Source: Gracilaria domingensis (taxonomy: Eukaryota; Rhodophyta; Florideophyceae; Gracilariales; Gracilariaceae). Taken from it: a stretch of 64,000 bases of DNA. The notes below the pieces were generated by a model. That model was not told the DNA's origin. It saw only the letters and a list, made by a program, of their open reading frames with translations, and searched no databases. Made by a program: the position numbers and the translations under genes. Position 1 is the stretch's first letter. Each line of letters begins with the position of its first letter. Shown here one piece after another: positions 5,396 to 53,727 of the stretch. The stretch covers positions 186,001 through 250,000 of the forward strand of contig VCMS01000010.1 in NCBI GenBank assembly GCA_022539475.1, given 5' to 3'.

Positions 5396-8300
5396 TCAAC
5401 GACTCGTGCCAGAGACTCTCTTCGTATTGTGGAAATTTCTACTCGGGAGCTTACCGGTGTACATTACCTCGTTCAATCTTCGGAACATCACGACGTTTCT
5501 CTTGGTTAGTGCGTCGGCGAGATCAAGTGAACCTTGTACCCACTGAAGCACAGAGATATCTCCAGTCTCGAACGAGTCCCGCAGCCTCAAGACCGTAGGT
5601 CACAGGCGGTAATCCCTCCACTCATGCAGAGTGGTAATTGTGGAGTAGAGCTCGTCAGAATCTACGGTTAGGACGAACGGGAGGTCCGCGTTTGCTCCAT
5701 ACACCCGTACCATAACAGTGGACATCATGGCTCCGCGATCCGCTGAGAGCGCCGCAGCTAGTATCTCCGCACCGATTGAGCTAAACGAAACTCTTGCTTG
5801 CTTAGAACTCGTCGAGTCGAGCACGTGAAATATTAATGCCTCGCCCCCAGCAGGCATGAAAAGACCCGAGATGTAGCCCGACTGCCCATACGAACCTTTT
5901 CCTTGACGCGCATCCTAGAACGCCAGGTATCGCGGAGTGATTGCAAGGGAAGGCGGGCGGCGGTACAAAAGCTCAGGCTTAAGGGACTGCAGCTCACCGA
6001 AGACTGGGTTGGCAAGAATCATATCAGAAACCATAAGTCTCGAGGTGCGCTGCTGCAGGTACCTTGCTGCGAACGACGCATGGGGTAGTACACCATGTCC
6101 GAGGAAGTTTAGTGATCCCGCTAGACCTAAGAACTCCGTCCATTCAGCTGGGGTACATGGGCTGTCGAAGCATTTGCGGCGTTCCCGTGATATGACGAGT
6201 TTGTTGATACTCGCCATGAACTCCTTCATATTCATCGATATCGAGCGATTGGCCAGCTGATTGATGCGGAGCCTGTTGGAGATCAAGTCTTGCGAGGTAT
6301 CAAATTTCCCGACAGTGAACTTCTGGCATATATCGTGGTAAAAGCTTTGAAGATCAGGCAGCCCGGTGAGAAGCATATCGTCAACCACCTTTGCCATGGC
6401 CAGCCGTATCGAACCGTCTTCGGTCCGCATTATGAACAGCTGTGGAAGGCCCGGTACGGGTTCAATACCATTCTTCACTAACCATTTTTCGATAGCGAGG
6501 TGCCATAGCCGGCCCGACTCAACAAGCCCTTATGTCGGTGCCAAAAGCTTCCATACATGGCCTGGTTCAGCCCAGCCTTTGGGCGGGATCATGAAGATGT
6601 CTCGAGAGAGGTCACCTCCCTGCAAGTACGCGCCTTTTATATCGAGGATCGCGAGCGGTAGACCAAGCGTTGCGGCGATGGACAAGACCATGCGAATGAC
6701 CAGAAACTGCGCGGAAGATGAGTTTTTTCGAATACCCTCCTTCTCTCTGTCCGTGTTACCGTGGGGGACCAGCCGGCATTTGAGGCGAAGCGCAGCATTC
6801 TCACCATCGATCTTGAAATGAAAGAAGTGGTGGAAGGAGACAACATTAGCATGCCTCGGGAGTGCAGATCGTCGAACTTCTTGATACTGCCCTTTATACA
6901 CTTCTTTTTCCTTCGCGAAGGCCCGATCTACGACCCACAGCGGCAGGAATTGCGTTCGGAACTTCAAGACATGGTCCTTTCCAAGCACCTGCATGGCACT
7001 CTTGAGAATTTCTTGCTCCGCAGATTCCAACTCAAATGGAGGCTTTGCTTCCATCACGGTAGTCAATCCGACGTCTTTGTCTGGACGTGATGGGTCATGA
7101 GGACTACTGATGTCCCGTTCTGGTATATCCACCAATTTTGGTTTGTGGCCGGCGAGCAGGGACACAACGTTGGGATCGGATGACCAGAGTGTCCGCTCGT
7201 CATTCAACAAGAAGCCTAGAGAGCTTTTGCGGGGCGTTGCTTCGGTAGCCCGTTTTGAGCAGGCGTTGGTCTTCTTCACGCCACGTTCGTCGCCTTGGCT
7301 TTCTTCGAGACGTTCCTCGTCGATTTGGACTACCGCGTATGAAAGCGAAGAAGTGTACCCCATTTGGTCCAGTTTCATGAGTAGGGCTGATGTGGGGACG
7401 ATACGGACGTCTTCACATGCAGCACGTATGCTCGGGTCCAGGTGAAGCTCGTTCGAAGACAGGAGGAGCGAATGTTCCTGAGCTTCCCGAACAAAAATGA
7501 CATGCCACACACGGAACTTAGGACCCCTCTTAAAGTAATACACTGCAGTACCCCTTGGGAACTCAGCCTGAGTGAGAACGTGAGGGTTTCTGGTCTTCTC
7601 CATGATGTGAAAAGCTCTCCTAGTTATCTGCTCTTGGTAGGCCTCAAGACGTTCTAGGGTAATCTTGGACTGCGGCAGGGCCATCAGGCTTGGTGTGTAA
7701 CCACGAACGAGTTCGAAGCTACTCATCTTGCGGCTGCCGTACATACAATTGCTCAAGAATGTTGCACGAGAGAGTATCTCTTCGAAGGAGAACTTTGTCT
7801 TGCGAACCGCCGAGAAATAGCTCGCGTCTCGGAGAAGTCGCGCGCATGCAAGCTTCACTATAGCATTCTTAGACTCTACGACACCAATCTTGTTATGCCT
7901 ACGCGCCGGGTGCGGTTCATAAGAGATAGAGTGCGCATTGAGGAAGTCCTTGAACATCCCGTTATCAAATTCGGGGTCACCAGAGAGTGATGTCGGTAGG
8001 CCATGGATGTTAACCCAATGTTGCTCGATAGCGTTCACCTCACTTAACTCTCTGGACTCAAGCATCACCGTAACCGAAAATGCTGAGGAAACGTCAACCA
8101 TGTGCAAGATAGAAATGCTGCCCATCTCCGAAACGAAGAGAAAGTCAATCTGCAAATGTGTGTTGAAGGGGACTAGGAGTCGCCGGAAGGAAACCTTCCT
8201 GGACCATGAAGGACGTCCGGTTGATTTGCAAGTTGTACACTTAGCCAAGACAGCCTCTAGGGCTTCCGGCAGCACCGATGTCAGCACACCAGCTCTCTCA

Positions 8301-8728
8301 AAGATCTCCTTCATATCATCTATAGGTATGTGGCTCAAGCCATGGAGCTTCGCCGCGCAGCGGTGACAAACCTTTTGGTCGCTGTACTTTCTCCTGAGCT
8401 ATTTTACCGTATTTCTACCGGCTAGGCTGCGGTAACATGCGAAGTAGGAAGAAATGGCTTCGTTAGTGCTTGGAAGTACGAAGATTCTAGTTCGGATCGT
8501 GTCCTCAGGGTCGCCGGAAAGCCGGGAAATGTATGTTTGAAGCTTCAAGTTCGTGCCGGACAACAAACCTTTGGGAACGACCAGGAGGCTTTCGCCGCCT
8601 AACACGTTGCTTTGATGGAGGAAGTTATTGCCGATTAGAAGTATCATGTCACCTTCTACCATGCCAAAAGGTAGAGAGGCGTGTAGGCCATCAACATCAG
8701 TCAAAGAGAGGTCCCAGATGGTGAACAC
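5396..8728 (-). pseudogene. Ty1/copia-like polyprotein, one frame with four stops
   Basis: Read from 8728 down to 5396 a single frame carries, in order: a protease-like segment (LHASLPFGMVEGDMILLIGN); a GAG-pre-integrase zinc region ending AVLAKCTTCKSTGRPSW; an integrase core with DVSSAF, LSGDPEFDNGMF and ARRHNKIGVVESKN; RT with LAILDIKGAYLQGGDL and the VVDDMLL catalytic motif; a typical GLVESGRLW block; copia RNase H (SGYISGLFMPAGGEALIFH, SIGAEILAAAL); and the C-terminal LADALTK motif. Four in-frame stops interrupt it: one near 8399, TAA at 6530, TAG at 5915 and TGA at 5600. No frameshift is needed across about 3.3 kb. It belongs to a different lineage from the copia element at 19-25 kb. I could not find LTRs. 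Confidence 0.85.
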
Positions 8729-10452: not shown

Positions 10453-12933
10453 TTGACCGTTCACCGATTTGATTTGGCGAATGTTTCTAATCCCGTGATG
10501 TCTGCGAATAACGTCTCAGCTTCAAATCAGTCTTTGCCAAACCAATCCCACTCATCCACATCACGCAAAGTCGGAAGAAAGCGCAGCTGGTGGCCAACCG
10601 AGTGCTTTTCACTCCAGCAGGACAATGATTCTACAACCCCTACCGACAATATCTACACCACTTGCAATGGCTGCGGGTGGCAGACGAAATCTGCCACAAT
10701 GAATGCTACACAGCTCGGGCAACATCTTCTACAGTGCGAATTTACGTCGTCTGACGCTTTGAGAAAACTACTCAAGTCACCTTCTCTACTCAAGGCTTAT
10801 CGAAAGCTTGGGTCTACGTCTGAATGTTTTGATATTCCCATTACCCCGTCTAAAGTACGTGAACGTTCTGATTCTACAGCCCTCAGTAGACCCCCAACTG
10901 TAGCCATTCAGAAGAAAGAGAAGCTTGGGCACGTTTTGAAGGATGAAACGGTGGAAAAGGAATTCGGCAGCAGAGTTTCACGGCTTCATGATCTACTTAC
11001 ACGTTTTATTGTGCACAATATGCTTCCATTCAACATTTTAAGTAGACGTGAAGATGAAAACGAGCTCATTGAGATTGTGAAGCTCTTGGATCCTCGATTT
11101 GAACGCCACGTGCCGACTATTGCCAGGATGGCAAGCAAGAATATCGAAGGATACTACTTGAAACAGATGAATCTGGTTAAGTCATCAATTTTTTCCGCAC
11201 TACGCCGAACCTACGGCACGCTCATTTTTGACGGCTGGACCGACGCAAATGCCGAGAACGTTGTGAACGTGCTGCTCACAATAACCGGTGTTGATCGCTC
11301 CCGAGTCACGTATTTTTTGCGTTCTGTTTATATGGGAGCCGCCAGCTGCGATTCAAGCCTTTACTCCGATATCGTTGATTCAGTCTTTCGAGACTTCGGA
11401 GACATGAGCCGACTTACTGGCGTTGTCAGTGACAATACTGCCTCCTGCGTTAAGGCAAAAGAGGAGATTGCACGACGACATAACCACATCATTTCCGAGC
11501 AAGATCAGACCCATGTGGCAAATCTGTTAATGCAGGACGTCGGAGAATTGCCGTGGATTGGTGATATACTGTCTACCGTTTCAGGGGTAGTTAACGATTT
11601 ACGGAAGCATTCTAAACTTTATTTCCGCTTTAAGCAACTTAAGGATCAAATCAACATAAACCTTCGCAACACAGGCTACATCACACGAAACCGGGAAGTC
11701 GATCAGTATGGCCGCGTTGTCCCAATTCGAACCGCAGTGCTGCCAATGAAAATGGCGGCTACTCGCTTTGCGAGTTCGGAGGGAATGCTTCATTCCTTTA
11801 TTAGAGGCAAACCCATATACAGGAAGTTGGTAGACTGTCCTGACTTTCACAAGAATTTGTATTGGAACAGGAATGCCCATCGACGAGACTACTTTGAGGC
11901 CACTGTTCGCGACAATTACATATTTGAGAAGTGCCTCGACATCTATTATGTGTTCCGCCTCATGCGACAGTATTTGCGCATATTTGATGACGAAAGTTCT
12001 GTCATCTCAGAAGTGTTCCCTGCAACGAGGCAACTTGAACGAGAACTCCAAGCCCTCTCTTTGACGCCGTTTTTCACCGCCGTTCGAAAGGACCAAGTAC
12101 TGACATCCTTCCGTGGTCGTATGAAAGACGACTCACGAAAAATTCCGCTGTTGACTTCTCTACACTTCGTGGCGTACTTTATTGATATTCGAAGTCTAAA
12201 TGAGGACGTTACAGACTACAACGAACATGTGTTGAGGCACATCAGAGCGTACGTTACCTCCGATGTGTTCCCGCCTTCGCAAAAACTACCGAGTTCAGGC
12301 GGAGTTGATGGTGCTGTTCATCAATTGTTCGAAGAATTTAGCTTCACGCGGCTATCATGGAGGGCGAAAGCAGATAATCTGACACGACGAGAAGCGCTGA
12401 TGGCGTTTAAGAATATTCCAGTTGTTTATTGGATGCAGTTCAGAGGTAATCACTGGTTGAGAGACTTCGCCCTACGCATTTTATCGGTGAGCCCCTCATC
12501 GTCAAGTGTGGAAAGGAGTTTTAGCCTGCAGGGGAGAATTCGAACCCCTTCACGAAACCGGCTCCATCCACTCAAAGTGAAAAAGATGATCTTCTGTGCC
12601 TTTAACCGTGCACTGAACTCAAAGACACATCGCTCTGGTAAGAATGCATTGAGATCAGCTCATGCTGCAGTGGCATCCCCACAAGGATCTAACGTAGCTC
12701 CAGAGCAAACAGCTCCGACGCACCAAGGGCAACCGACAGCGACTCCTTTAGGCACCGGAGATTTCGTCTCCTACTTTGACATGGACCCCAGCGTTGACGC
12801 AAACAATGAGCATATCAATGAAGAAGAGGCAATCACCGAAGTCATCGTCGAATCGGCTTTTTCAGACGTTGAAAATGAGCATGAGGAAGCCCAGCTTCCC
12901 GACGCTGGTGTTATGCGCAGCCTTTTTCAGTAG
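10453..12933 (+). CDS. hAT-family transposase, apparently intact
   Basis: An uninterrupted frame of 826 residues. A BED-type zinc finger lies near residues 73-98 (CNGCGWQ then HLLQC). The RNase H-like region includes LIFDGWTDANAENVVNVLL (about 258-276) and VVSDNTASCVKAKEE (about 325-340), followed by THVANLLMQDVGELPW. The C-terminal hAT dimerisation domain is clear (LRILSVSPSSSSVERSFSL near 676-694). The length is normal for hAT transposases. A second in-frame ATG lies at residue 17. hAT enzymes cut and paste DNA at short terminal inverted repeats and make 8-bp target duplications, but I could not find the termini. The Ser/Gln-rich and acidic tail is unremarkable. Confidence 0.9.
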   Translation: MTVHRFDLANVSNPVMSANNVSASNQSLPNQSHSSTSRKVGRKRSWWPTECFSLQQDNDSTTPTDNIYTTCNGCGWQTKSATMNATQLGQHLLQCEFTSSDALRKLLKSPSLLKAYRKLGSTSECFDIPITPSKVRERSDSTALSRPPTVAIQKKEKLGHVLKDETVEKEFGSRVSRLHDLLTRFIVHNMLPFNILSRREDENELIEIVKLLDPRFERHVPTIARMASKNIEGYYLKQMNLVKSSIFSALRRTYGTLIFDGWTDANAENVVNVLLTITGVDRSRVTYFLRSVYMGAASCDSSLYSDIVDSVFRDFGDMSRLTGVVSDNTASCVKAKEEIARRHNHIISEQDQTHVANLLMQDVGELPWIGDILSTVSGVVNDLRKHSKLYFRFKQLKDQININLRNTGYITRNREVDQYGRVVPIRTAVLPMKMAATRFASSEGMLHSFIRGKPIYRKLVDCPDFHKNLYWNRNAHRRDYFEATVRDNYIFEKCLDIYYVFRLMRQYLRIFDDESSVISEVFPATRQLERELQALSLTPFFTAVRKDQVLTSFRGRMKDDSRKIPLLTSLHFVAYFIDIRSLNEDVTDYNEHVLRHIRAYVTSDVFPPSQKLPSSGGVDGAVHQLFEEFSFTRLSWRAKADNLTRREALMAFKNIPVVYWMQFRGNHWLRDFALRILSVSPSSSSVERSFSLQGRIRTPSRNRLHPLKVKKMIFCAFNRALNSKTHRSGKNALRSAHAAVASPQGSNVAPEQTAPTHQGQPTATPLGTGDFVSYFDMDPSVDANNEHINEEEAITEVIVESAFSDVENEHEEAQLPDAGVMRSLFQ

Positions 12934-20698: not shown

Positions 20699-23600
20699 AT
20701 GTCGGGCTCACAAGATGGTCTCCTTGGCAAGCTTCCAAAGCTCAAGGTCCCATCAGATTACATCTTGTGGCGTCGTCGTCTCTTGGCATATCTCCGCAGA
20801 AATGACGCTTTCCTTTCCGGATTAGATCCCCGCCCCGAGGGTTTCACTCCGACGAATCGCAACATGAGGTCCTGGTTCGAAAAGTCGGTAAAGGCAAAGA
20901 GCACAATCACGCTTTGTCTTGGCGATTCGGCTCTGGCACTCGTTCGCACCTTCATCGATGATGATGAAAAGACTGCGAAGGACCTTTGGGATGAACTGCA
21001 ACGCGTCTACACTACATCAAACGCGCAAGCTGTGCAGAACATTCGACATCGCTTGGACACTTTGGTTTACAAAGACAATGACGGCTGGAACAAACATGTG
21101 TCCCAGTTCTTGGAGATCGTCGGCGAACTCGCAACATTTGACGAAGAGCTTTCGGAAAAGGACAAGGTTTCCAAACTTATCCGAAGCCTTCCAAACTCCT
21201 TCGCACCACTGGCCATGATGTCGAACCTAACTGATGTTGGCTTTGATTCCATTATAAATGCCGTCCAAGCCGAGGTAGCTCGCCGTAAGAACCCGAACAA
21301 CCCTCAAAATGGTTCATCCTCCGCCACTCCCTCTACATCCACGCAACCAAAGGCCAGCACAGCCTCCAGGAGTGGACGGAACCGGCGTAACCGACGTAAT
21401 AAGTCATCACTCAACAAGGATCGCGACGACAATAACTGCTACTATTGCGGACGTCGCGGTCATTACGCTCGAGATTGTTACAAAAGGAAGCGGGAGGAAG
21501 CCGATAACAACAACTCCCGCAACACTTCTGCAAATCAGCAGTCCCGCAAACGATCTAACCGTGATCCCAACCGTTCGCAGCCTAACTCGAACAACTACCA
21601 AGGAGGTCAACGTCAGTCGAACTGGAACTCTGGCTTTGCACCAAGGGGGGATGTTAATGGTAACCGCAACTCCAACCCTCGATCCTATGTGGTGCAAAGA
21701 CACGATGATCCACCTCCCTCACCGCGCTTTAACTGCAACATGGCGAAGTACCGGAGTAACGTCGCACTACTCTCACAGAACAAGGTGAACTCGGCGTATA
21801 TCGACTCGGGCGCCACTCACCACTTCTTTCATTCGCGGAAGTCTTTCATCCGGTACGAGCGAATCGACATCGAGTTGGTTCAAGCTGCTTCTGGCACAGC
21901 TCGTCTTGTCGGCAAAGGCCACGTCTGGATCCCTCTTAATAATGGAACAGTCGTTGAAGCGTACCATGCCCCGGCGTTTGAGTCAAACATTCTCTCCGTT
22001 GGTGTTCTCAGCGCTGACTTTATGGTCGTGTTCACCTCTACCCTGCGCCCATTTAACGGCTGCTTCATCATGCATCCCAAACGAAACTCCGAGGTCATTT
22101 GGGAAACAGCGATACATCAAGGACTGTTCATCATGAACCTGACTGACAAGAAGAAACAGGTCATGGTTGTGAATGCTGGCAGCACTAAACAGGAATTGGC
22201 ACTTGAGTGGCACGGTCGCACTGGTCATCTGCACCCAAGCAGGTACCAAAACCTATCGAAGGCCTTGGACTCTGTCCCGTACTTTCAGAGATCCATCCTT
22301 GAATCCCTCACTTGCGTACCATGCCTTACCGGCAAAATGAAGCGCAACCCGCTCATCGCCAGACCGCGGTCCGTCTCCACATCTGATCCTTTGGAACTTG
22401 TGCACATGGACGTATCTGGAAAGATTTTGCCATCTCTTTCAGGTGCGATCTATGCCATGGCTATCCTGGACGACTACATTTCTAAGTCAGATGTCTTCTT
22501 TCTCTTGGATAAGACCCATGCCAACATCCTGAAATACTTGGACTGGTACAAGCGCCGATCCGAACTTGAACTCAACAACTCGTTTCGCCTCAAAAATGTT
22601 CGCCTGGACGGGGCAGGTGAACACAAGAGCAACGAACTGGAAGCCTTCTGCTTCAACAATGGCATCCATCTAGACTTCTCTCCGGCATACGCTTCTGAAT
22701 CCAACGGAGCTGCCGAGAGACTCATTCAAGAACATTGGACGAGAACTCGTGTACTTCTCTTTGCGAGTAAGCTGCCCCTATCCTTCTGGGCTGAGGCCAT
22801 GAGCCACGCAAATTGGCTACGGAACCGAGTGCCATCCTCTCGAATTCAGGGACGGATACCCATGTTGGAATGGGACCCCACGACAAAGATTGATTTCTCC
22901 CACATTCCCAACTTTGGTCAGCCTGGCTACTCATTCGTTTACCGCTCCAAAACGGTGGCGAACAAGAAGTTTCTCCCTCGGTCAGTGTTTTCACACTTCG
23001 TGGGGATGCAGATTGACAACACACTCTTCCGCGTCTTTGTACCGGAGAAGAACTCAGTGGTGACTTGTCGCAACTTGGACTTCAAGGCGATCAACTCCTC
23101 TCCGCTTCCTAACATCTCTTCGCTTCTGGAAGGCATCATTCGCCAACAAGAAACGGAGGAAGCAAAACCTGCCGAGGATCATCCAGACAACATGGACTTG
23201 GAAGAACACCTGGTTAAGGCCTTCACTACTATCACGCAAAACTTCCCTCAGGTGTGGGTCTCCAAGAAGACACTGGACGACCCCTCGGTGCCGCACTCCT
23301 TCAAAGAAGCCTGCAAGGACCCTGGTTGGTGTGAAGCCATTGACCGCGAAATGAACGCGTTGGTCAAACGGAACACTTGGGAGCTAATTCCACGAGAAGG
23401 TTGGATGAAGCCTGTCCCATACACTTGGGTGTTCAAGGAAAAGATGTTGGACGGGATTGGTAAGAAGTTTCTGAAGAAGGCACGCTGCTGTCTACGGGGA
23501 GACAAGCAGAAGCCCTTCATCGACTTCGATCCTCTCAACACCTACGCACCTGTGGCCTCCCACGAAGCCTTACGTCTACTTCTGTCTTTCGCAGCCTCTA

Positions 23601-24871
23601 ATGACCTACTACTCGAAGGGGCTGATATCTCGAACGCGTACTTGTATGGCAAGCTTGACGTTCCTATTATTATGGAGCAACCCACCGATGCATCTGGTGT
23701 GCAAACTAAACCGGGTTATGTGTGCAAACTTCTCAACTCCCTCTACGGAGCTGTACAAGCTGGGTTAATCTGGGGCTCACTCTTCTGGACACTCTACTCT
23801 CCTGGGGCTTTGTCAACTCAGCACTCGATCCAAGAGTGTTCATGTACCTCGACGAAGAGTTGTTCATCGTCATCGCCGTTATCGTAGACGATTGCGCATT
23901 CGCCTCTAACAGTGGTAACCTCCTCACTCACCTGAAACAAAAGCTTGCTACAACCTTCGATGTGAAACTTTATGGAGAACTGTACTCGTTCATCGGCTGC
24001 AGTATTCAACGCTCTCCAGCTGGTATCAAGGTGTCACAGTATGGCTACGCAGTACAACTACTTAAGAAATTTGTAATGCAAGAGTGCAACACGGTTCAAT
24101 CACCTCTTCCTGCGAACGCCAATCTTCTACCAACGAGTGAGAACGAGACCGCACTCAACCGCCAGGAACATGCAGACTATCGCTCAGGAATCGGTGGACT
24201 TCTCTCCATAGCCATCTCGACAAGACTTGATCTTTCCTTCGCTGTCTCAGCTCTCTCGAAGCACTTACACAATCCTTGCCAACGGCATCTTTCTTTACTT
24301 AAGCGTCTCTTCAGGTACTTGGCTGAAACGTTGGATTACGGATTACATTTCCGAGCGAACGAACCGATCACCCCTCTCTCCATCCGTGCGTACGCTGACG
24401 CCGATTTGGGGGGGATGTATCGAGACACGTAAGTCTACCTCTGGGTACGTAATCGTTGTCAACGACGCACCAATCATGTGGAAGTCGAAGCGACAAACCG
24501 TCATTGCGCTTTCGTCTGCTGAAGCAGAGTACGTTGCTCTCTCTACTTGTGCTAAGGACATAACGTGGGTCCGAAAGATGTTTTGGGAGTTTGCCCATCA
24601 ACAGCCTTGGAGCGAGAAGTTCTGGTACGAAGCAACGGAAACTCTCTTGAATAGCTCGGCTGCAATTTCGTTGACCACAAACCCGCAAATCTCTGGACGC
24701 AACAAGCATATTGACTTGGGGATGCATCACGTCGGAGACCTTTTACGAGAGAATATCATTAAGCTTCGTCACATTGCAAGGAGTCTACAGATCGCTGACA
24801 TATTGACAAAGGTCGCCCGTCTCATTGATGTGAAGAGGATGGTCAGCTTGATGGACCTTGACTCGTTCTGA
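20699..24871 (+). pseudogene. copia gag-pol polyprotein with two frameshifts
   Basis: Frame 1 (20699-23887): UBN2-type gag; a CCHC knuckle (CYYCGRRGHYARDC, about residue 247); protease YIDSGATHHFF (about 367); GAG-pre-integrase (WHGRTGHLHPSRY and LTCVPCLTGKMKRN); an integrase core with HMDVSGK, DGAGEHKSNE and SESNGAAERL; then RT (VFKEKMLDGIG, LNTYAPVASHEALRL, LLEGADISNAYLYG). Near 23775 the frame shifts to 23722-24432, which holds the catalytic IVDDCAF motif. At a run of seven G (about 24408-24416) it shifts back to frame 1 for the RNase H end (ETRKSTSGY, ALSSAEAEYVAL, ADILTK). Both shifts fall in G runs and compensate each other, so either two recent indels or assembly errors. Confidence 0.95.
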
Positions 24872-25759: not shown

Positions 25760-27145
25760 CTACTCGCACGCAGACAGGTTCTCCACCGATCCGTCGATGG
25801 CAAACTCCAAGAACAGCAGCTGCCCGCACGGGTGCAAGCTCACCACATGATCCGCCCCCTTCACCACCGCCACATTGCGCTTGAACACCGCGTCCAGGTC
25901 CTCCACATCCTCCATCGGCGTGACGGAATCCAGCTCTCCCGCAAGCACCAGCGTCGGAATCTCCGCCTGCGGCGCCTTGTCGAGCGGAAGCCCCTCGCCC
26001 CTCAGCTGCCGGAACGGCATGGCGGGGCAGTATTTGGCCAGCGATTCAAAGCCCTCGGTCATGTAGAACGGCGAAAAGTCCTGCAGTCCTACCTTGTGCA
26101 GCACGTCGTACACAAGCTTTCCAAACCGTTCCAGCAACCCGTCGTCCACGTCCCACGGCACCAAGTCCACCATGCTGTTGCAAATGGTGGACACGGACAT
26201 TGCGGCAGAAAAGTTGCGAAGCGGAGACACGGACGGCTCTAGTTCCTTTGCGATTTCCTTCAAGCCCGTGTAGTTCTTCTCATTGGCAGCAGCGGCAATT
26301 GCCCCCGCGAAAGAATCCGACGTGAATCTGTACATATGGAACAACAGTCTCGGATCCATTTTCAGATCCTCCCTCAAAGCCCGGTTCCAACGCAAGCGGC
26401 GGAGAACCGTCTTCACCTGGTTCTTGAACTTGCGCGGCGTAAAGTCCGGGTTGTCCTTGTTTTTCGCTGCATGAATTCGAGCGTAAGCGGCATGGTGCCG
26501 AACCTCATACAAATCTTGGTATCGCATCGGCAGAGGCGAATCGAGAATCATCGATCGAACGCTGTCGGGGTACAGCACGCCGTAAGCTTGCGAAATGAGC
26601 GTGCCGTATGACACGCCAAACAGATCCAGCTGCTTGAAACCAAGCGCCTTTCGAAGGACTTCCAGATCGTTCACAATGGCGTTCACAGAGTAGTGCAGCA
26701 CGTCATCCCCAATCTCTCTCAGACACGACCGAATATCGAGAAGGTCAATGTCTAACGAGAGCGGCTCGGCTTGCAGAGAACAATTCAACCGAGATTCATT
26801 TCCAGTTCCACGAGGATCAAACATGATCACAGGGCGTTTGAGTTCATTCACAAGCTCGAGCGAAGTCAGTTCTTCAATAGGATGCTCCAAGACAGAGCCG
26901 CCAGGGCCGCCAGGGACGAGAACAAAGGCATTTTCCGAGTCCACTTGGATCGAAGGATAGGTTATGGCGTAAAGCATAGAAATGTTCACGGTGGTATCAG
27001 GGTTCGCATGATCGAGGGGCACGCTAATCTTCCCGCAAGTCGAGTTAGAGAGGTACTCTGGGCACGAAATGGTCCCCAATGAAGCGTAGGCCAATGACTG
27101 GAGCACGAGGAATAAGATGAGAACTAAGAACAGAGAACTCAACAT
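25760..27145 (-). CDS. secreted alpha/beta hydrolase, S33 / TAP-like peptidase family
   Basis: 461 residues, no introns. It starts with a hydrophobic signal peptide (LFLVLILFLVLQSLAYA). The fold's landmarks are in order: an oxyanion-hole loop (FVLVPGGPGGS, about 76-86); FDPRGTG; the nucleophile elbow LFGVSYGTLISQAYG (GVSYG, Ser near 179); a Leu/Lys-rich lid region; then the C-terminal TAP-like part with the acid (LVLAGELDSVTPMEDV) and catalytic His (KGADHVVSLHPCGQ). Family members such as bacterial tripeptidyl aminopeptidases cleave short peptides from the N terminus; here export is predicted, so extracellular or vacuolar peptide hydrolysis is likely but the substrate is unknown. Cys residues at both ends suggest disulphides. 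It lies on the same strand as, and 1.2 kb downstream of, the CDPS gene. Linkage of function is only a possibility. Confidence 0.92.
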   Translation of the reverse strand: MLSSLFLVLILFLVLQSLAYASLGTISCPEYLSNSTCGKISVPLDHANPDTTVNISMLYAITYPSIQVDSENAFVLVPGGPGGSVLEHPIEELTSLELVNELKRPVIMFDPRGTGNESRLNCSLQAEPLSLDIDLLDIRSCLREIGDDVLHYSVNAIVNDLEVLRKALGFKQLDLFGVSYGTLISQAYGVLYPDSVRSMILDSPLPMRYQDLYEVRHHAAYARIHAAKNKDNPDFTPRKFKNQVKTVLRRLRWNRALREDLKMDPRLLFHMYRFTSDSFAGAIAAAANEKNYTGLKEIAKELEPSVSPLRNFSAAMSVSTICNSMVDLVPWDVDDGLLERFGKLVYDVLHKVGLQDFSPFYMTEGFESLAKYCPAMPFRQLRGEGLPLDKAPQAEIPTLVLAGELDSVTPMEDVEDLDAVFKRNVAVVKGADHVVSLHPCGQLLFLEFAIDGSVENLSACE

Positions 27146-28353: not shown

Positions 28354-29235
28354 CTAAACCCCGGCCATTACTTCGGCGGGCTGAGGCTCAATCGCAAGTA
28401 TGGCTAAACCATTGTGGGCCTCTATTCCATCATCCGCTTCCACTAGTTTCTTCTTAAGATCAGAAAAGATTAAGTTGCTATGGATATCCTTTGCCAAGCG
28501 CCGCATTGTAGGGGCATCCGGATTGGCGTTAGCCCTCGCCAAGGATATTGTACTAGTCGCATAGATACGCGTAACATACCGCTCATTTTTGTGCGACAGT
28601 CCAGTCAGGAAAAGTGGCAACTCGTCCAGGATGAATTTCACCGCATGGGACGTTCGTCGTGAGACGAATCTACTATTCGGAATTCTTTGATTGACAAACT
28701 CCATGCCAATCTCGTCAACTCGGTGTCGGAAAGATGGGTTCCTGTAATAATACTCATGCACAATTGCAGCTTGCTTCGCCTTGTTCTCGTCAATTATATC
28801 GTCCCATCGCAGAAGGGTAATTTTGTCGCTGCCAGTAGCGATTATGGCGTCGGATATCGCCTTGACATATAGACTGCCGCGTTCCAGAGCCATTCGGTGT
28901 GCTTCGTTGGGACAAATTTCGTGGTCTTTTCTCCTTCTTTTTATCGCTATTATGTCGTGTCGAACCGGCGAGTCCACTACGAGAACTACGGAAGGATATG
29001 GCAAAGATTGCAAATATGCAACTACACGGTGGGCCCCACTAGGTTCCTTCAAGGGCGAGTTTACGAGCACACTGATCGTTAGAAACACCCCGGGTTGGTT
29101 GAGCATCTCTTCGCAGACATCGAACATAAAGTAGAGCCCGGCTTCTCGGTTTCCGTCATGTTCTCTTGCACTATCTTTCGACATCTTTTTCAAGAAGAAC
29201 GGGCTGGAATTCTCCTCCACGATGGTATTTTGCAA
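28354..29235 (-). CDS. probable tRNA-dependent cyclodipeptide synthase (CDPS)
   Basis: 293 residues from the 29235 ATG; bacterial CDPSs are about 240. These enzymes use two aminoacyl-tRNAs to make a cyclic dipeptide through a Ser-bound intermediate in a Rossmann-like, class-I synthetase-derived fold. Matches to the known layout, in order: FLTISVLVNS (Ser55, at the catalytic Ser of GIS in AlbC/YvmC); VVLVVDSPVRHDIIA (second strand, as DVVYVDTHIDEMLIA); a basic helix (KRRRK); LLRWDDIID; EYYYRNPSFRHRVDE (as in FFEQPHFRHACLD); and KFILDELPLFL (residues 200-210, as EYVIAELPFF), giving Glu205 at the conserved Glu. Tyr225 (RIYATST) sits at the conserved Tyr. The usual Tyr of YxxxE is Phe201, and the residue after Tyr225 is Ala, not His or Pro. 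The start is uncertain: Met18 is an alternative, and an upstream exon is possible (see 29171-29506). Recognition is from remembered family motifs, not a search. Confidence 0.72.
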   Translation of the reverse strand: MQNTIVEENSSPFFLKKMSKDSAREHDGNREAGLYFMFDVCEEMLNQPGVFLTISVLVNSPLKEPSGAHRVVAYLQSLPYPSVVLVVDSPVRHDIIAIKRRRKDHEICPNEAHRMALERGSLYVKAISDAIIATGSDKITLLRWDDIIDENKAKQAAIVHEYYYRNPSFRHRVDEIGMEFVNQRIPNSRFVSRRTSHAVKFILDELPLFLTGLSHKNERYVTRIYATSTISLARANANPDAPTMRRLAKDIHSNLIFSDLKKKLVEADDGIEAHNGLAILAIEPQPAEVMAGV

Positions 29236-31040: not shown

Positions 31041-31500
31041 TCACGATAGTCGCTTGGTTTGTGCTTTGGAGCTGTATTGGCCTTCCTTGGCATTGGACTC
31101 CATGACTTTTTCCGGGTTCGCGGTGCTTGGTGACAAGGCGTTGTCAATGACAGGGTTTTCAATTCTACAGTGGGTTAGATTCACGGTGGGGTTCTTGCCC
31201 TCCGACACGTACCAGATATTCTCCGGTTTAACCTCGCGATGGGCAGTTCCCTTGGCGTGCAGGTAGATGATCGCACGTACCAGCAAGCGCATAACGGTGT
31301 GGATATCATTCTCGCAATAGCCCGGGTTGTTCCTGTATATGTCAGTGATTCTGGGCAGCAACTGGACGCTCGTGAGCAGCTCCATGACAATGTATACGAA
31401 GCATTCGTCCTCAAAGATGGCGTGGCACTGCACGAGGTTCGGATGCGAGCCAATGCGGCGGAAGGCGAGCAGCTCGCCGCAGTCTTCCGGCTAGGGCAAG
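31041..31500 (-). pseudogene. decayed protein kinase catalytic domain
   Basis: The minus-strand frame ending at 31041 reads ELLAFRRIGSHPNLVQCHAI, then FVYIVMELL (hinge), RAIIYLHAKGTAHREVKPEN (catalytic loop) and VNLTHCRIENPVIDN. It follows subdomains IV-VII of a CAMK-like Ser/Thr kinase, but HRD has become HRE and the DFG position reads THC, so catalysis should be lost. A TAG lies just upstream of the first block (about 31490), and no glycine loop or VAIK Lys is found in the GC-rich sequence beyond. It could also be an internal exon (CCTTGCCCTAG looks like an acceptor), but the lost catalytic residues argue for a pseudogene. Confidence 0.65.
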
Positions 31501-34151: not shown

Positions 34152-35240
34152 TTAGGTCTCCCCTACGGATGCCAAATGAGCTTTGTTTGGCAACGTCGTA
34201 CGAGAGAATCCGTATCTGCAAATCTTGCACAGGTCGGTGTCGCTCGCACGAGAGTTCCAGCATCCGTAACTAAAATGACCGGACAATTCACTGCACATAT
34301 CACTCACAACGCCACGAATAGATGGGGGGATGTCCAGATTAGGCACATACTTCAAGGCATGGATCATCTCCTTGACTGACGAGGTAAGTTGTTCCTTGGT
34401 CGGGGCGATTGCGACATGGTTTGAAGCGGCGGTACGAGAGAAGCCATATCTGCAAATATTGCACAGGTCGGTGTCGCGCGCACCAGAGTTCCAACATCCG
34501 TAGCTAAACCGACCCGACAATTCACTGCACATATCACTCAAAACGCCACGAATAGATTCAGGTAGCTTCAAAGACGGCATGTGCGACAAAGCATTGACGG
34601 CCTCCTTGACTGGTAAACCAAGATGTTCTTGCGCCGGAGGTAGAGCTATCTTGTTTGAAGCTGCGCTACGAGAGAATCCGTATCTGCAAATCTTGCACAG
34701 GTCGGTGTCGCTCGCACCAGAGTTCCAACATCCGTAGCTAAAATGACCGGACAGTTCACTGCACATATCACTCACAACGCCACGAATAGATGGGGGGATG
34801 TCCAGATTAGGCACATACTTCAAGGCATGGATCATCTCCTTGACTGACGAGGTAAGTTGTTCCTTGGTCGGGGCGATTGCGACTTGGTGTGAAGCGGCGG
34901 TACGAGAGAAGCCATATCTGCAAATATTGCACAGGTCGGTGTCGCGCGCACCAGAGTTCCAACATCCGTAGCTAAACCGCCCCGACAATTCACTGCACAT
35001 GTCGCCAATGTCCCCAGGTAAGATCGCGCGCGACGGCGCAAACAATCGATTCCATGACAACTCAGAGATTTCGTGGCGGTGAATGGAAACGAAAGCCAAC
35101 AGAGACACGCCTATGATGCCGAAAGCGAGGCGAGATCCATACGAGAAAAACGACCGAGCTGTAGAGTCAACAGCTCGCTTCTGTGCGCTTGGTTGGACGT
35201 TCGAAACTGGGATCGCTTCGTACTCTGCCTTTGGAATCAT
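34152..35240 (-). CDS. single-TM protein with four CX10CX10CX2C repeats
   Basis: 362 residues, no intron. A short cytoplasmic head is followed by one membrane segment (FGIIGVSLLAFVSI, about 40-53), suggesting a type II anchor or uncleaved signal. The rest is four copies of a 78-residue unit, each opening DMCSELSG.FSYGCWNS..., with cysteines spaced CX10CX10CX2C (the last pair as CNIC or CKIC) and then RYGFSR, plus a helical linker (KEMIHALKYVPNLDIPPSIRG). Units 1 and 3, and 2 and 4, are closest to each other, so a two-unit block of 468 bp was itself duplicated. I do not recognise the motif. Paired cysteines suggest disulphides outside the cell or metal binding. The last unit is followed by a short tail. 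Confidence 0.85.
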   Translation of the reverse strand: MIPKAEYEAIPVSNVQPSAQKRAVDSTARSFFSYGSRLAFGIIGVSLLAFVSIHRHEISELSWNRLFAPSRAILPGDIGDMCSELSGRFSYGCWNSGARDTDLCNICRYGFSRTAASHQVAIAPTKEQLTSSVKEMIHALKYVPNLDIPPSIRGVVSDMCSELSGHFSYGCWNSGASDTDLCKICRYGFSRSAASNKIALPPAQEHLGLPVKEAVNALSHMPSLKLPESIRGVLSDMCSELSGRFSYGCWNSGARDTDLCNICRYGFSRTAASNHVAIAPTKEQLTSSVKEMIHALKYVPNLDIPPSIRGVVSDMCSELSGHFSYGCWNSRASDTDLCKICRYGFSRTTLPNKAHLASVGET

Positions 35241-42210: not shown

Positions 42211-42840
42211 ATGGACGAAAGGCCGTATTCTCGTCAGGCTCTTATCGCACAGGGGCCGAGGTCAGAGGCTTCTTTTTTATTCTTTTATGGCCACGATGCT
42301 GCGCTTGGACCGCAAGCAGTGCTGTCAAACTTCTGGCATTGTCCACAACCCTTTGCGGATTCCGAAAATCGCCAGTTTTCCACATCAGAACACTACATGA
42401 TGCACGGGAAAGCTGTTCTTTTTGGCGATGAAGAAATGGCAGAAGCAATTCTGAACGCTCCAACGCCCTTGGCAGCGAAAAAGCTTGGAAGAAAGGTGCG
42501 CAATTTTGATAACGAAGTATGGAGGCAACATCGTCTTCGAATTGTAGCAGAGGGGTGTTTCTTGAAGTTTTCGCAATGCAAAAACGCGCGTCGTTTTCTG
42601 CTGGGTACCGGTGATCGCATATTGGTGGAAGCAGCGGCGAGAGATAGGATCTGGGGCATAGGAATGAGTGCTGCGAATGTGTACAAATGCGATCCGACAA
42701 AGTGGAGAGGATTGAACTTGCTTGGAGAAACTCTCATGATGGTGCGACATCGTCTTCGTGAGAATGGGAGCGCAGATGAGACCAAGTGGTCTCTACCGGC
42801 ATTACAAAACGCTCCGAGCGGTAGTGTCGCTAATAATTGA
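42211..42840 (+). CDS. NADAR-domain protein (YbiA-like)
   Basis: 209 residues, intronless, no signal peptide. NADAR landmarks are in order: VLSNFWHC (about 37-44), FSTSEHYMMHGKAVLFGD (about 55-72, conserved Glu/His/Met/Lys positions), AKKLGRKVRNFDNEVW (about 86-101), LKFSQCKNARRFLLGTGDR (about 114-132) and LVEAAARDRIWGIG (about 134-147, conserved Glu, Asp and WGIG). Members such as bacterial YbiA cleave N-glycosidic bonds in early riboflavin-pathway intermediates, and some act on NAD/ADP-ribose-type substrates, so the role here is either metabolite repair or ADP-ribose handling. The length fits a stand-alone NADAR protein with short tails. The MITE just upstream probably forms part of its 5' region. 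Confidence 0.92.
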   Translation: MDERPYSRQALIAQGPRSEASFLFFYGHDAALGPQAVLSNFWHCPQPFADSENRQFSTSEHYMMHGKAVLFGDEEMAEAILNAPTPLAAKKLGRKVRNFDNEVWRQHRLRIVAEGCFLKFSQCKNARRFLLGTGDRILVEAAARDRIWGIGMSAANVYKCDPTKWRGLNLLGETLMMVRHRLRENGSADETKWSLPALQNAPSGSVANN

Positions 42841-42931: not shown

Positions 42932-44422
42932 TCAACCGTCGCTCGCACGAAACGTTTTTGGTTCATATCCGTACTCCAAATTTCCATGTAAATCACCGAT
43001 CAACCTCCGTTCGATAAACGAGTTATTTCCTCTGCCAAAGTCCTTGATGGTGGGCGTATCTTCAAAGAATTCCTTCCATGCCCATCGAGAGTCTACTCGG
43101 CTCTCCAATCTTGCTATCACCAGAACAACCCATGCAAAAAGCAGACCCATGAAGATTGCTATGCTGTGTATAATTCCCAACCATGGCCTGTTGTAGAGCA
43201 CCAATGGTTCTTGTTCAGTCAATCGTTCATCATCTTCACCCTCCGATTTGATTCTAGCTCCTCTGCCAATTGGAAACATTATGGACCGCAGCAAGTCATG
43301 CAAGTACCACCCCATTTTCAAAGATTCATCTTCCATCTCTAACAGGTGTGGAAAGTATTTCAAGTGCGATTCGTTCAGAAATACTTCGCTCAAACCCATC
43401 GATATTTCCACGCCAGCTCTTTCAGTTTCCAAATGGCGTTGGAAAAGTCCTATACTTGGTCTTTTCTCGCTGGAATTGTCCGTTTTTTCTATCAAAGATG
43501 TTTCTAAGATCGTCAAATTCGTTCTTTCAAGACGACTCAATAAAGCAATCTTCATATCCTCGGCGGTGACATTCTGTCTTCCGAAATACATGGTTCCAGA
43601 GCTTCCTGGGAGGCTATTCAACACTCCAATTACATATCTCAGCGTCAAAATCTTATCCCATAAAAACACATGTGCTTCCACTTGAATGTTAGATGCGCTG
43701 AGGCGCATCACAGCCGTTTGACGAACTTCAGGCGTTGCATCATTCGCATTCACGTCGACCTCCCATCTTGCACAAATCTGAATGTTGGCTTGCGACTCAA
43801 AGCCAGGGTTCTCAGTCAATGCTGTCTGGTGACAAGCGTTGTTCAAGAAGCCAGCCGTGTACTCGCAACCGCGATCTCTAAACTCGAAGATCGGAACTTC
43901 ATCAAACTCGATGAAGTGTGCAGATACTCGATTGGTGGAAAAGAATATGAATAAGAAATCCACCAAGACAATCGCCAAACCGGTGCAGATTAGAACCAGA
44001 GATGTGCAAGTTGACCGGGAAGGCTTGGACTGCGGATCAACCTTTTTTCCATTTCTATCTTCTGCGTTCTTGTCCTGACATGCTTGCGGGAGTGATAACA
44101 ACAGAGAAACCGGATTAGAGTAGGTAGAAATCACATTCTGTCTGAAAATCAATCTTTTCGAGACTTGATCTTTCCTAGCTCGGACAGAAATGCGAAACGC
44201 AATATCCATAAAAAGCAGCAGAGAAACGGAAGTCAGAACAGCTGTAACCAAAGAAACGGCGTTCTCATTCAGATTGAAGTTGGCAGGATCATCGAATTGA
44301 TTTTCGTAGAACCCGTCAACACGCCAACCAACGCCAAACTCATCTATGCCTGATACATTGCAGTGCAAAGCATCGCTTAGTTGAGTTCCAGTACTAATAA
44401 ATGCTTCCTGTGGGGTGGACAT
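42932..44422 (-). CDS. three-TM membrane protein, paralogue 1
   Basis: 496 residues, no intron. Three hydrophobic segments: AVSLVTAVLTSVSLLLFMDIA (about 74-94), LVLICTGLAIVLVDFLFIFF (about 140-160) and a C-terminal one (IIHSIAIFMGLLFAWVVLVI, about 412-431). Between the second and third is a domain of about 250 residues with cysteines (RGCEYTAGFLNNACHQTAL, NIQICARWEV) and several N-glycosylation sequons, probably outside the cell. The short tail ends with RWAWKEFFEDTPTIKDFG. It is clearly homologous to the product of 45963-47450, sharing these motifs in the same order. No known family is recognised. Head-to-head with its paralogue. Confidence 0.85.
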   Translation of the reverse strand: MSTPQEAFISTGTQLSDALHCNVSGIDEFGVGWRVDGFYENQFDDPANFNLNENAVSLVTAVLTSVSLLLFMDIAFRISVRARKDQVSKRLIFRQNVISTYSNPVSLLLSLPQACQDKNAEDRNGKKVDPQSKPSRSTCTSLVLICTGLAIVLVDFLFIFFSTNRVSAHFIEFDEVPIFEFRDRGCEYTAGFLNNACHQTALTENPGFESQANIQICARWEVDVNANDATPEVRQTAVMRLSASNIQVEAHVFLWDKILTLRYVIGVLNSLPGSSGTMYFGRQNVTAEDMKIALLSRLERTNLTILETSLIEKTDNSSEKRPSIGLFQRHLETERAGVEISMGLSEVFLNESHLKYFPHLLEMEDESLKMGWYLHDLLRSIMFPIGRGARIKSEGEDDERLTEQEPLVLYNRPWLGIIHSIAIFMGLLFAWVVLVIARLESRVDSRWAWKEFFEDTPTIKDFGRGNNSFIERRLIGDLHGNLEYGYEPKTFRASDG

Positions 44423-45962: not shown

Positions 45963-47450
45963 ATGTTTGATGAAGAGGGATTACGTTGCTCTGCACCGGG
46001 CTTGGATGTTGTCAGTGGTCGTTGGCAAGTGCAAAGTTTCTATGAAGAGCAGTTCAACGATCGTGTAAACTTCAATCTGGATGAGAACACTGTATCGCTT
46101 GTTACCGCTGTGCTGACTTCCATATCGCTCTTGCTGCTGGCGGACATATTCTTTCGGGTGACAGTTCGTGCTAGAGGCGACAAAATATCGAAGCAACTTA
46201 TTTTTCGTCACCATGTACTCAACACTTTCTCGAATCCAATTACTCTATTGCTGTCACTACCCGAAGTTTATGGGAGAAGCACTCAGAATAGAGTTGAACA
46301 TGATGAAATTGAAGTGGGCAAACCAAGCACGGACTCTGGACCTATGGTTCGGAGGGCAACACTGCGTACTTGGGCGATAGCGTTCATGGGCCTTGTTCTG
46401 GTCCTCGTAGAGTTCTTGTTCATCTTCTTCGCCACAAACCGAAATTCGGCTAAAGAGTTGGATATTGACGAAGTTCCAGTGTTTGAGATCGAGGATCGAG
46501 GCTGCGAATATATTCCAACGGCTGTAGTGAACGCTTGTAGTCAAACTGGGCTCACTTCCAAAGCTGGATTCAATTTGCGGGCAAGTATTCAAACGTGTTC
46601 ATCGTTCCATATCAGCCCGGCCAGAGGACCCCTCGACTTCAACGTTTCAGGTTTGGCGTTCATTCTGTTCGGGATTACGCCAATTCGAACCAGTGCCACT
46701 ATTGCGTTTGACCGCACTCAGGTTAGAATGGATTATGGCATAAGCGTTAGGAACAGTGCTGATGGCAATGGCTTGGTGTTCTATGGAAATCATAATGTAA
46801 CAGCGGAGAGTATGAAGAATGCGTTATTGAGTCGTCTCCAAAGAACGAATGTGACCGTTCTAACGGTGGAATCCTCAAATCAAACGGCGGCCGGAACGAG
46901 AAATATGGCTACGCCTTTTTCTCAGATTCACCACCTGGTGAAGATGCAGCAAGAACTAGAGGAATTCTATCTAGTTGTGTTTGGAGTGGATGTTGGGGAG
47001 GTTGTCTTAAGTGAGACTCATTTGCCAGTTATCTACAATACTTCCAAACTCGAGAATGAGTCGTTGTTTATGCTGGAGTACCTGCAGGATCTTGTTAGGT
47101 CAATCATATTTCCGTCTGGTAGAGGATCTGCATTTCACATTGCAGAAGAAACGCAAATTGGCTATTTGCTGGAAATCGCACCAGGGGTGTTTTTTAACAG
47201 ACCGTGGGTTGGAATTGTGCATAGTATGGCAATATGCATAGTCCTGCTTGTGACTTTTGTCGTTCTGGTGATTTTTAGAGTCGAGGGGACCATAGACGAT
47301 CGATGGGCGTGGAAAGAATTCTTTGCAGACACACGTACTGTGAATGATTTCGGCATTGGGGACGATTCCCATCTGAAAATGGGGTGGAAGACAGACATCA
47401 GCGGAAAGCGAACGTACGGGTTCATTCCTGAGGCGCGTGCGACGGCTTGA
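45963..47450 (+). CDS. three-TM membrane protein, paralogue 2
   Basis: 495 residues, no intron. Same architecture as the gene at 42932-44422: TM segments VSLVTAVLTSISLLLLADIFF (about 46-66), WAIAFMGLVLVLVEFLFIFF (about 139-158) and IVHSMAICIVLLVTFVVLVI (about 416-435). The intervening domain has cysteines at matching places (RGCEYIPTAVVNACSQTGL), YGNHNVTAESMKNALLSRLQ (YFGRQNVTAEDMKIALLSRL in the paralogue), and the ending RWAWKEFFADTRTVNDFG. Identity is moderate, so the duplication is old. The two starts are 1.5 kb apart on opposite strands. Function is unknown; a surface or organelle-membrane protein is likely. Confidence 0.85.
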   Translation: MFDEEGLRCSAPGLDVVSGRWQVQSFYEEQFNDRVNFNLDENTVSLVTAVLTSISLLLLADIFFRVTVRARGDKISKQLIFRHHVLNTFSNPITLLLSLPEVYGRSTQNRVEHDEIEVGKPSTDSGPMVRRATLRTWAIAFMGLVLVLVEFLFIFFATNRNSAKELDIDEVPVFEIEDRGCEYIPTAVVNACSQTGLTSKAGFNLRASIQTCSSFHISPARGPLDFNVSGLAFILFGITPIRTSATIAFDRTQVRMDYGISVRNSADGNGLVFYGNHNVTAESMKNALLSRLQRTNVTVLTVESSNQTAAGTRNMATPFSQIHHLVKMQQELEEFYLVVFGVDVGEVVLSETHLPVIYNTSKLENESLFMLEYLQDLVRSIIFPSGRGSAFHIAEETQIGYLLEIAPGVFFNRPWVGIVHSMAICIVLLVTFVVLVIFRVEGTIDDRWAWKEFFADTRTVNDFGIGDDSHLKMGWKTDISGKRTYGFIPEARATA

Positions 47451-52332: not shown

Positions 52333-53727
52333 TGTGGAGGCGGTTACGAGAGAGCGTCCCGCAATCCCTTGGACACGGCCAAAAGATTTTCTTATCCCCG
52401 GAAATTGCTCCGTAGATAAAATCACCCCCCACCCCTGAACTGCGCTCCTCGCCGCCCCGTCTGCGCTCGCTGCCGTGCGTCTGCCGCCGCGTCTACGCTC
52501 GCTGCCGTGCGTCTGCCGCCGCGTCTGCGCTCACTGCTACGCGCCGCGCGTCGTAGCACGCCGCCGAAGATGATGAGATGGCGCGCTTTGGCGCGGCGGC
52601 AAAGAGAAGTAAGTCGCGCTCCGCGCGCTGCGGCGCGCGTGAGAAAAAGGAAGATGAGGTGGCACGCCGCGCGCTGCGGCCCGCCTGAGGACGGTGAAGT
52701 CGCGCGCCGCACGCCTCGGCGCGCCTGAGGCAGAGGGAGATAAGGTTCCGCGCCGTGCGATGGGCCTTGCCTAAAACTGAAGATGGTACCACTGGCTCTG
52801 TACTGGTGTTGCGCCTCTCGCGCTGCTGTTCCTCTGCATTGCTACGGACGGGAATGGACGCTTCTACTGTGAACGAAAGGAAATGGGGGAAAGCGCTGTG
52901 GGACACTGTTGCTACCGCCGCTGTGGGACTGTTACTGTTCTGGAAGTGGGGCTGCGGCTACTGGATGATTGGCGCGCCGTGTGACTGCTACTATGATAAT
53001 GATGTTGAGGCTACTGATATGATGGCGATGACGCTGGCGATGCGCTGCACTATGCTGCGGTTAATTCACGAGGCATCTAAAGCGCACGTAAGCAGAATAA
53101 CTAAAGGCAGGAAGAACGATTGGGACCGAACATCATGGCATTATATGGAACACGAATATAACCTACGAAACTGGTTCAGAACCTAACGACATATCATCAC
53201 TGACCAACCACCGACCTACATAACGAAGAACCGTATGTCGACATCACTACCTACTATAGATATGGTGAGCAGACTAGGGTATTTGGTGGAAACCGATGTT
53301 CAGCACGCAGCTTAAGATACACAAAGCATTGAGATTGTAGATATAAACCCCCGAACCCGAGCGCTCGAAAAGCAACTCGGTTCGGGCAGACCACTTCCCC
53401 CCTTGACGATCCCCCCCCCATCCTTGCCTCTCTCGTCTTTCTTCCTCCCCTTCCGTCGTCACCAACCTTCCTTCCTTTGGCACTCCCATCTTCCCTCAGC
53501 GCAGTCTGCGCCTCCCTGCCACCAACCTTTCCCCCTACATTTCCTTATTCCCGGCGGCCCGGTCTCCCGCCGTTCCCTACACAGTCGCCTTGTGCTCCCC
53601 TCCATTGGGCTCGTCCGCACATTGCAATCATACCTACATCCCCGTTCTTCCGGACGGACGTGGGCAGTGGTACGCATTGCACGGGTTCCCTTCCTGTCGT
53701 CACCTCGCCTGGTTACTAGGTTTATGG
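52333..53727 (+). repeat. left LTR, 1.4 kb
   Basis: Starts TGTGGAGGCGGTTACG. Nearly identical to 61148-62520, apart from an extra segment of about 24 bp near 52396 and scattered changes in the GC-rich part. Contains short tandem repeats (CTCGCTGCCGTGCGTCTGCC type, from about 52455), a 143-codon ORF shared with the right LTR, and a pyrimidine-rich stretch (53400-53560) likely to surround the transcription start. The 3' edge is set by the primer-binding site, but the expected CA end is absent. Confidence 0.88.

Follow-up and report, generated by a model that had tools for sequence, protein, structure and literature searches.

A divergent cyclodipeptide synthase homologue in the nuclear genome of the red alga Gracilaria domingensis

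Gracilaria domingensis is a florideophyte red alga. The stretch of its genome assembly analysed here, 64,000 nucleotides from a single contig and called the window below, carries on its minus strand an open reading frame (28354..29235) of 293 amino acids that opens with a TTG at 29235 and had been read in the original prediction as a probable cyclodipeptide synthase (CDPS). The frame lies where it was reported, and the peptides quoted from it are found in its translation. The gene likely starts at the ATG at 29184 (Table 1), because this codon is aligned with the start of a paralog (C50) and keeps the LxFxFD block, residues 17-22, that is common to all six paralogs in the genome; the protein-database version (P0001, 250 amino acids) starts from ATG 29106, past this block. 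Residues are numbered here from ATG 29184, and the numbers of the original prediction are higher by 17. A TATA-like element was also reported upstream, and the motif is present but by itself is evidence of nothing.

Table 1. Positions of the CDPS-like gene, its candidate catalytic codons and the upstream motif in the window
Feature	Position	Strand	Remarks
CDPS-like gene	28354..29184	minus	single frame of 276 aa starting at ATG 29184; CDPS family matches
Ser38 codon (Ser55 of the original prediction)	29071..29073	minus	probable nucleophile; end of first predicted strand; invariant in 6/6 paralogs
Ser43 codon (SP motif)	29056..29058	minus	alternative nucleophile; invariant in 6/6 paralogs
Phe184 codon, position of AlbC Tyr178	28633..28635	minus	Phe in 3/6, Tyr in 3/6 paralogs
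Glu188 codon (Glu205 of the original prediction), position of AlbC Glu182	28621..28623	minus	invariant in 6/6
Tyr208 codon (Tyr225 of the original prediction), position of AlbC Tyr202	28561..28563	minus	invariant in 6/6; next residue Ala (Trp in one paralog), not His/Pro
TATAAA	29553..29558	minus	369 nt upstream of ATG 29184; read from sequence, no evidence of function alone

The flanks had been described as ordinary host genes. Host genes are present, and the window contains a NADAR-domain gene (42211-42840, E=2.5e-51), an alpha/beta hydrolase and a fragment of a kinase, but the surroundings are also transposon-rich, with copia-type elements at 6530-8314 and 20699-23887 (RVT_2), a hAT element at 10498-12933 and a gypsy-type element at 55130-61099. 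The gypsy-type frame encodes reverse transcriptase, RNase H and integrase and is flanked by the stretches 53204-53625 and 61997-62418; both match the same stretch near another CDPS copy (L026:8066-8479, close to C196) at 82.1% identity, and are therefore probably long terminal repeats. The kinase fragment (31041-31433) has the motif HREVKPEN, where HRDLKPEN is usual in protein kinases, and resembles either a degenerate kinase or a single exon. The frame at 34152-35240 contains, by eye, four tandem repeats of ∼78 residues with a cysteine-rich DMCSELSG...CNICRYGF motif after a hydrophobic stretch, and the domain scan gave it no convincing family. A divergent pair of frames (42932-44422, minus; 45963-47450, plus) encodes proteins of ∼495 amino acids each, alike by eye and with hydrophobic stretches, for which there were zero Pfam matches.

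CDPSs divert aminoacyl-tRNA from protein synthesis to natural products and are mostly bacterial. Judged by sequence and predicted fold, the window gene is homologous to these tRNA-dependent enzymes. The NCBIfam model TIGR04539 matches it with E=1e-6 (28.5 bits) and the Pfam CDPS model (PF16715) with E=0.0012 (19.1 bits); both scores miss the curated cut-offs, of 45 and 27 bits respectively, and the matches are confined at most to residues 109-216 of the 293-residue frame, the models covering the 276-residue protein only from ∼residue 92 onward. The Pfam search proposed as a check thus gave a match, but a weak one. The paralogs do better: among the five scanned, TIGR04539 matches all (best 9.5e-11) and PF16715 matches four, and C234 passes the Pfam cut-off with 30.5 bits. 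A genome-wide scan with the Pfam model at E<=0.001 yields two copies, of which C234 alone is above the cut-off, and zero matches in 14 control genomes; relaxing the limit to E<=10 brings the total to just three of the six copies.

Among solved structures, the best match by sequence is the CDPS of Fusarium (FoCDPS, PDB 31ee/31eg), with E=6.5e-5 for the window copy alone and 3.4e-9 with a profile, followed by the 7qat series, a Parcubacteria CDPS (ParcuCDPS) of the XYP subfamily. Bacillus CDPSs match the window copy alone weakly (E 0.33-0.44), and the sole non-CDPS entry in that search comes last (E=0.64). When a profile of the six paralogs was compared by hhalign, the Fusarium CDPSs gave a probability of 97.5% (E=8.1e-12, score 82.3) and five bacterial sequences of the NYH subfamily 54.6% (E=1.2e-4, score 37.1), while 100 column-shuffled controls for each comparison reached at most 27.0 and 23.3. 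A structure predicted from just five paralogs was of low quality (pLDDT 50.8). A model of medium confidence has the class-Ic synthetase-like Rossmann fold of the CDPS type; all 50 of its listed Foldseek matches are CDPSs, with members of the XYP subfamily on top, and the VIA comparison places CDPSs ahead of tyrosyl-tRNA synthetases. The original prediction would have fallen with no significant CDPS match and a different fold; the searches gave such matches, and the predicted fold is that of a CDPS. Chance, or a generic likeness among class-I synthetase-like Rossmann folds in place of CDPS descent, would accommodate a window copy under the Pfam cut-off and just 16-21% identity with the Fusarium proteins, but it is hardly credible when CDPSs come out best in the Pfam, TIGR04539, solved-structure, Foldseek and VIA comparisons alike, and when the shuffled profiles fall so far below the real score.

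The gene belongs to a family. Genome searches with two paralogs returned the same six loci, C10 (the window), C50, C96, C234, C86 and C196, with one open frame each on six separate contigs. One search showed a TAA inside the match at C86 and the other showed none; the 275-residue frame of C86 ends upstream of this TAA, and the match is therefore read as overrunning the natural stop. The copies are under purifying selection: dN/dS (NG86) is 0.23 for the window copy with C50, 0.24 for C96 with C86, 0.27 for C234 with C196 and 0.20 for C234 with C86, the four pairs with dS below 1.5, the remaining pairs being saturated and two of them lacking a dS. Third codon positions are the most different, and second positions the least, in all 15 pairs. 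In a tree with five Fusarium sequences the six copies form one group with full support, separated by long stems of 2.1 and 2.6 changes per column; inside the group only the pairing of C234 with C196 is supported.

The relatives found outside the genome are distant. When a profile built on five paralogs was run against 5.8 billion proteins, a search that reaches only relatives with identical 5-residue words, it gave five matches among 5959 candidates, namely the window protein and four named G. domingensis proteins. Species genomes of bacteria and archaea and viral contigs were scanned by pattern with either the algal alignment or FoCDPS, and no relative was confirmed; such scans are sensitive only to close relatives and overlook even bacterial CDPSs already known. 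Plasmids gave zero matches for FoCDPS, P0004 or the Parcubacteria piece. The nearest relatives found are the Fusarium CDPSs (P0006 and relatives), at about 20% identity. In their alignment to the Gracilaria family, gaps are few between the [ST]PL motif and the hairpin that follows the ELP helix. Searching with FoCDPS yielded 30 proteins (P0006-P0035), of which five short ones were left out and three of the remaining 25 (P0008, P0027 and P0030) were dropped for motif mismatch, leaving the 22 rows used below. Eight of the 30 are deposited as 'chitinase', apparently a misnomer.

Against known CDPSs, the active site of the Gracilaria copies is partly conserved. Glu188 and Tyr208, the Glu and Tyr named in the original prediction, share columns with Glu182 and Tyr202 of AlbC in each of three MAFFT runs and are invariant in all six copies. 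Where AlbC has Tyr178, the window copy, C50 and C96 carry Phe, and C234, C196 and C86 carry Tyr, as do all 22 Fusarium rows. The window copy shares its predicted fold with AlbC and the bacterial NYH CDPSs, but it departs from their trio (Asn40, Tyr202, His203), with no Asn three residues past either Ser38 or Ser43 and no His after Tyr208. Nor does it have the XYP pair (Tyr202, Pro203), since Tyr208 is followed by Ala209; the corresponding residue is Ala in five copies and Trp in C196, and therefore neither subfamily label applies. XYP enzymes (label from PMC5816076) are the top Foldseek matches. Read with fixed spacing, 18 of the 22 Fusarium rows would have His where AlbC has Tyr202; this is not claimed, as MAFFT puts Tyr188 of FoCDPS there, in agreement with its published XYP label. 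A bacterial layout along the whole length, as first proposed, thus survives for the Glu and the Tyr, but not for the Tyr178 position, the subfamily trio or the region before ∼residue 92.

The nucleophile, judging from alignments and the predicted model, is probably Ser38 rather than Ser43. Ser38 closes the first predicted strand of the model, and AlbC Ser37 likewise stands at the end of the first strand. Three of four hhalign settings for the N-terminal piece pair Ser38 with Fusarium residue 20, the fourth leaving it uncovered; this residue, the presumed nucleophile, is Cys in 20 of the 22 rows read and Ser in two, whereas the Gracilaria copies have Ser in all six. The VIA row of AlbC (3oqv) starts with 29 on 28, which gives a Ser38-on-Ser37 register if gapless thereafter. 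On the other side, MAFFT shifts Ser38 one column from Fusarium residue 20, and both hhalign and MAFFT align Ser43, part of an invariant SP pair, with Ser37 of the bacterial CDPSs, a placement of very low confidence because the hhalign probability for this N-terminal piece is only 0.08-0.24%. The catalytic serine named at the outset is therefore a probable choice, but Ser43 is equally invariant and the alignments disagree.

These departures allow another reading, that the proteins descend from a CDPS and no longer make cyclic dipeptides, retaining the fold and possibly the ability to bind aminoacyl-tRNA, but serving another aminoacyl transfer or a regulatory role. Phe at the Tyr178 position in half of the copies, the absent subfamily trio and an N-terminal piece that scarcely matches bacterial CDPSs would all fit. 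We consider it unlikely: Glu188, Tyr208, Ser38 and Ser43 are invariant under purifying selection, and three copies retain all four catalytic residues, given Ser38 as nucleophile. At least some of the six copies are likely to have the predicted CDPS activity, and the window copy may be one of them. Positions equivalent to the AlbC substrate pockets (35, 185, 186 and 200), assigned by counting from the catalytic residues with the pocket list given in PMC5816076, vary across the paralogs (T/L/P; L/P/I/M/V; F/C; R/N/L, respectively). This variation weakly hints at differing substrates, and the paralogs may therefore make different cyclic dipeptides.

The CDPS contigs might also derive from an organism contaminating the algal sample. 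In keeping with this, no gene of certain red-algal origin has been shown on the contig of the window, and the five 8-kb flanks taken around algal marker genes had, by blastn, no repeat in common with the window or with any of the other five CDPS loci. The mean 3-mer distances from the window and from the CDPS loci to these flanks (0.022 and 0.024) are slightly greater than those within groups (0.018-0.019), a difference that speaks for neither origin. Contamination is nevertheless highly improbable. The eukaryotic-type retroelements of the window make a bacterial origin very unlikely; the six copies are spread over six contigs of 103-437 kb; and three of the five other loci (C96, C86 and C196, but not C50 or C234; 10 kb examined by blastn) share repeats other than the CDPS gene with the window. 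The assembly itself (77,892,253 bases in 680 contigs, 77.9 Mb) agrees with the 78 Mb given for G. domingensis in PMC10388701, and it contains light-harvesting genes (11 matches) and phycobilisome-linker genes (14 matches). GC3 of the copies (0.39-0.51) is near or just under that of eight neighbouring genes (0.46-0.68). The window gene is, then, a true, divergent nuclear CDPS homologue of the red alga, and the central claim of the original prediction stands.

Eukaryotic CDPSs are already known. The first were reported in 2010 from fungi and animals (PMC2922099), and a 2014 review lists twelve eukaryotic candidates from Ascomycota, Annelida, Ciliophora and Cnidaria, with no alga in that list (PMC4159871). 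In 2018, fungal CDPSs were assigned to XYP and those of marine animals, among them Nematostella Nvec-CDPS2, to NYH, with two failed attempts to express fungal enzymes (PMC5816076); the marine-animal proteins, compared here by description only, are eukaryotic and nuclear like those of Gracilaria. Candidates of low conservation have been named in the diatom Seminavis robusta as proposed makers of a diproline pheromone (PMC8027222), again compared by description only and from an algal lineage unrelated to Gracilaria. Fusarium proliferatum has two CDPS genes in H3K27me3 chromatin that are upregulated on loss of the mark, the Fusarium product being described there as unknown (PMC10786395). The literature searched contained no report of a CDPS from a red alga; the paper on the G. 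domingensis genome, whose title covers secondary metabolite pathways, lay outside that scope and may mention the gene. Four of the G. domingensis paralogs already have names at NCBI (three 'Cyclodipeptide synthase', one 'hypothetical protein'), and the identification as a CDPS is therefore not itself new. As far as the searches reach, what is new is the occurrence in this phylum, the family of six copies, and how far it has diverged, active-site departures included.

The best explanation, to which we give a probability of about 80%, is that the gene encodes a CDPS homologue that would make cyclic dipeptides from aminoacyl-tRNAs in a red alga. The enzyme would work in the cytosol, where the aminoacyl group of a first aminoacyl-tRNA would be transferred to a serine, probably Ser38; Glu188 would aid the attack on a second aminoacyl-tRNA, and Tyr208 would act in the cyclisation that precedes release of the cyclic dipeptide. 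Phe184 in place of Tyr should weaken the holding of the amino group and may alter rate or substrate. By analogy with the proposals made for the diatom (PMC8027222) and for an annelid (PMC2922099), the products may have a role in signalling or defence. A broader picture is offered only tentatively: that Gracilaria has a CDPS branch of its own kind, a third one beside NYH and XYP, specific to eukaryotes and distantly linked to the fungal enzymes. Duplication would have given at least six genes, whose diverged pockets and Tyr178 position would let the seaweed make its own range of cyclic dipeptides to serve in signalling or defence. A six-gene macroalgal family would extend CDPS chemistry to Rhodophyta. 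Diketopiperazines associated with seaweeds are now isolated from fungi living on them, including a Gracilaria case (PMC8398661), and the family raises the question of whether some also originate in the alga itself. The copies with Phe for Tyr offer a test of how much of the catalytic set is required.

A conserved biosynthetic cluster around the CDPS gene was considered and is unsupported. The alpha/beta hydrolase (25760-27145; TAP-like and proline-iminopeptidase-like, with an N-terminus hydrophobic by eye) lies 1.2 kb from the CDPS gene on the same strand, but its seven genome matches, some of the relatives being in pieces, are solely on C10, C15 and C78, and therefore on none of the five other CDPS contigs. 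No gene other than the CDPS is common to any two of the five other neighbourhoods (10 kb, frames of at least 130 amino acids, compared by eye), and scans of 15 of the 16 window frames of at least 200 amino acids (all but 4512-5207) brought up no domain of the P450, oxidase or methyltransferase type. Individual neighbours of the other copies include an Asp/Glu/hydantoin racemase gene 1.3 kb from the C86 copy (L024:2719-3564) and two protein kinase genes, alike by eye, on either side of the C96 copy (L023:2937-3839 and 6811-7644).
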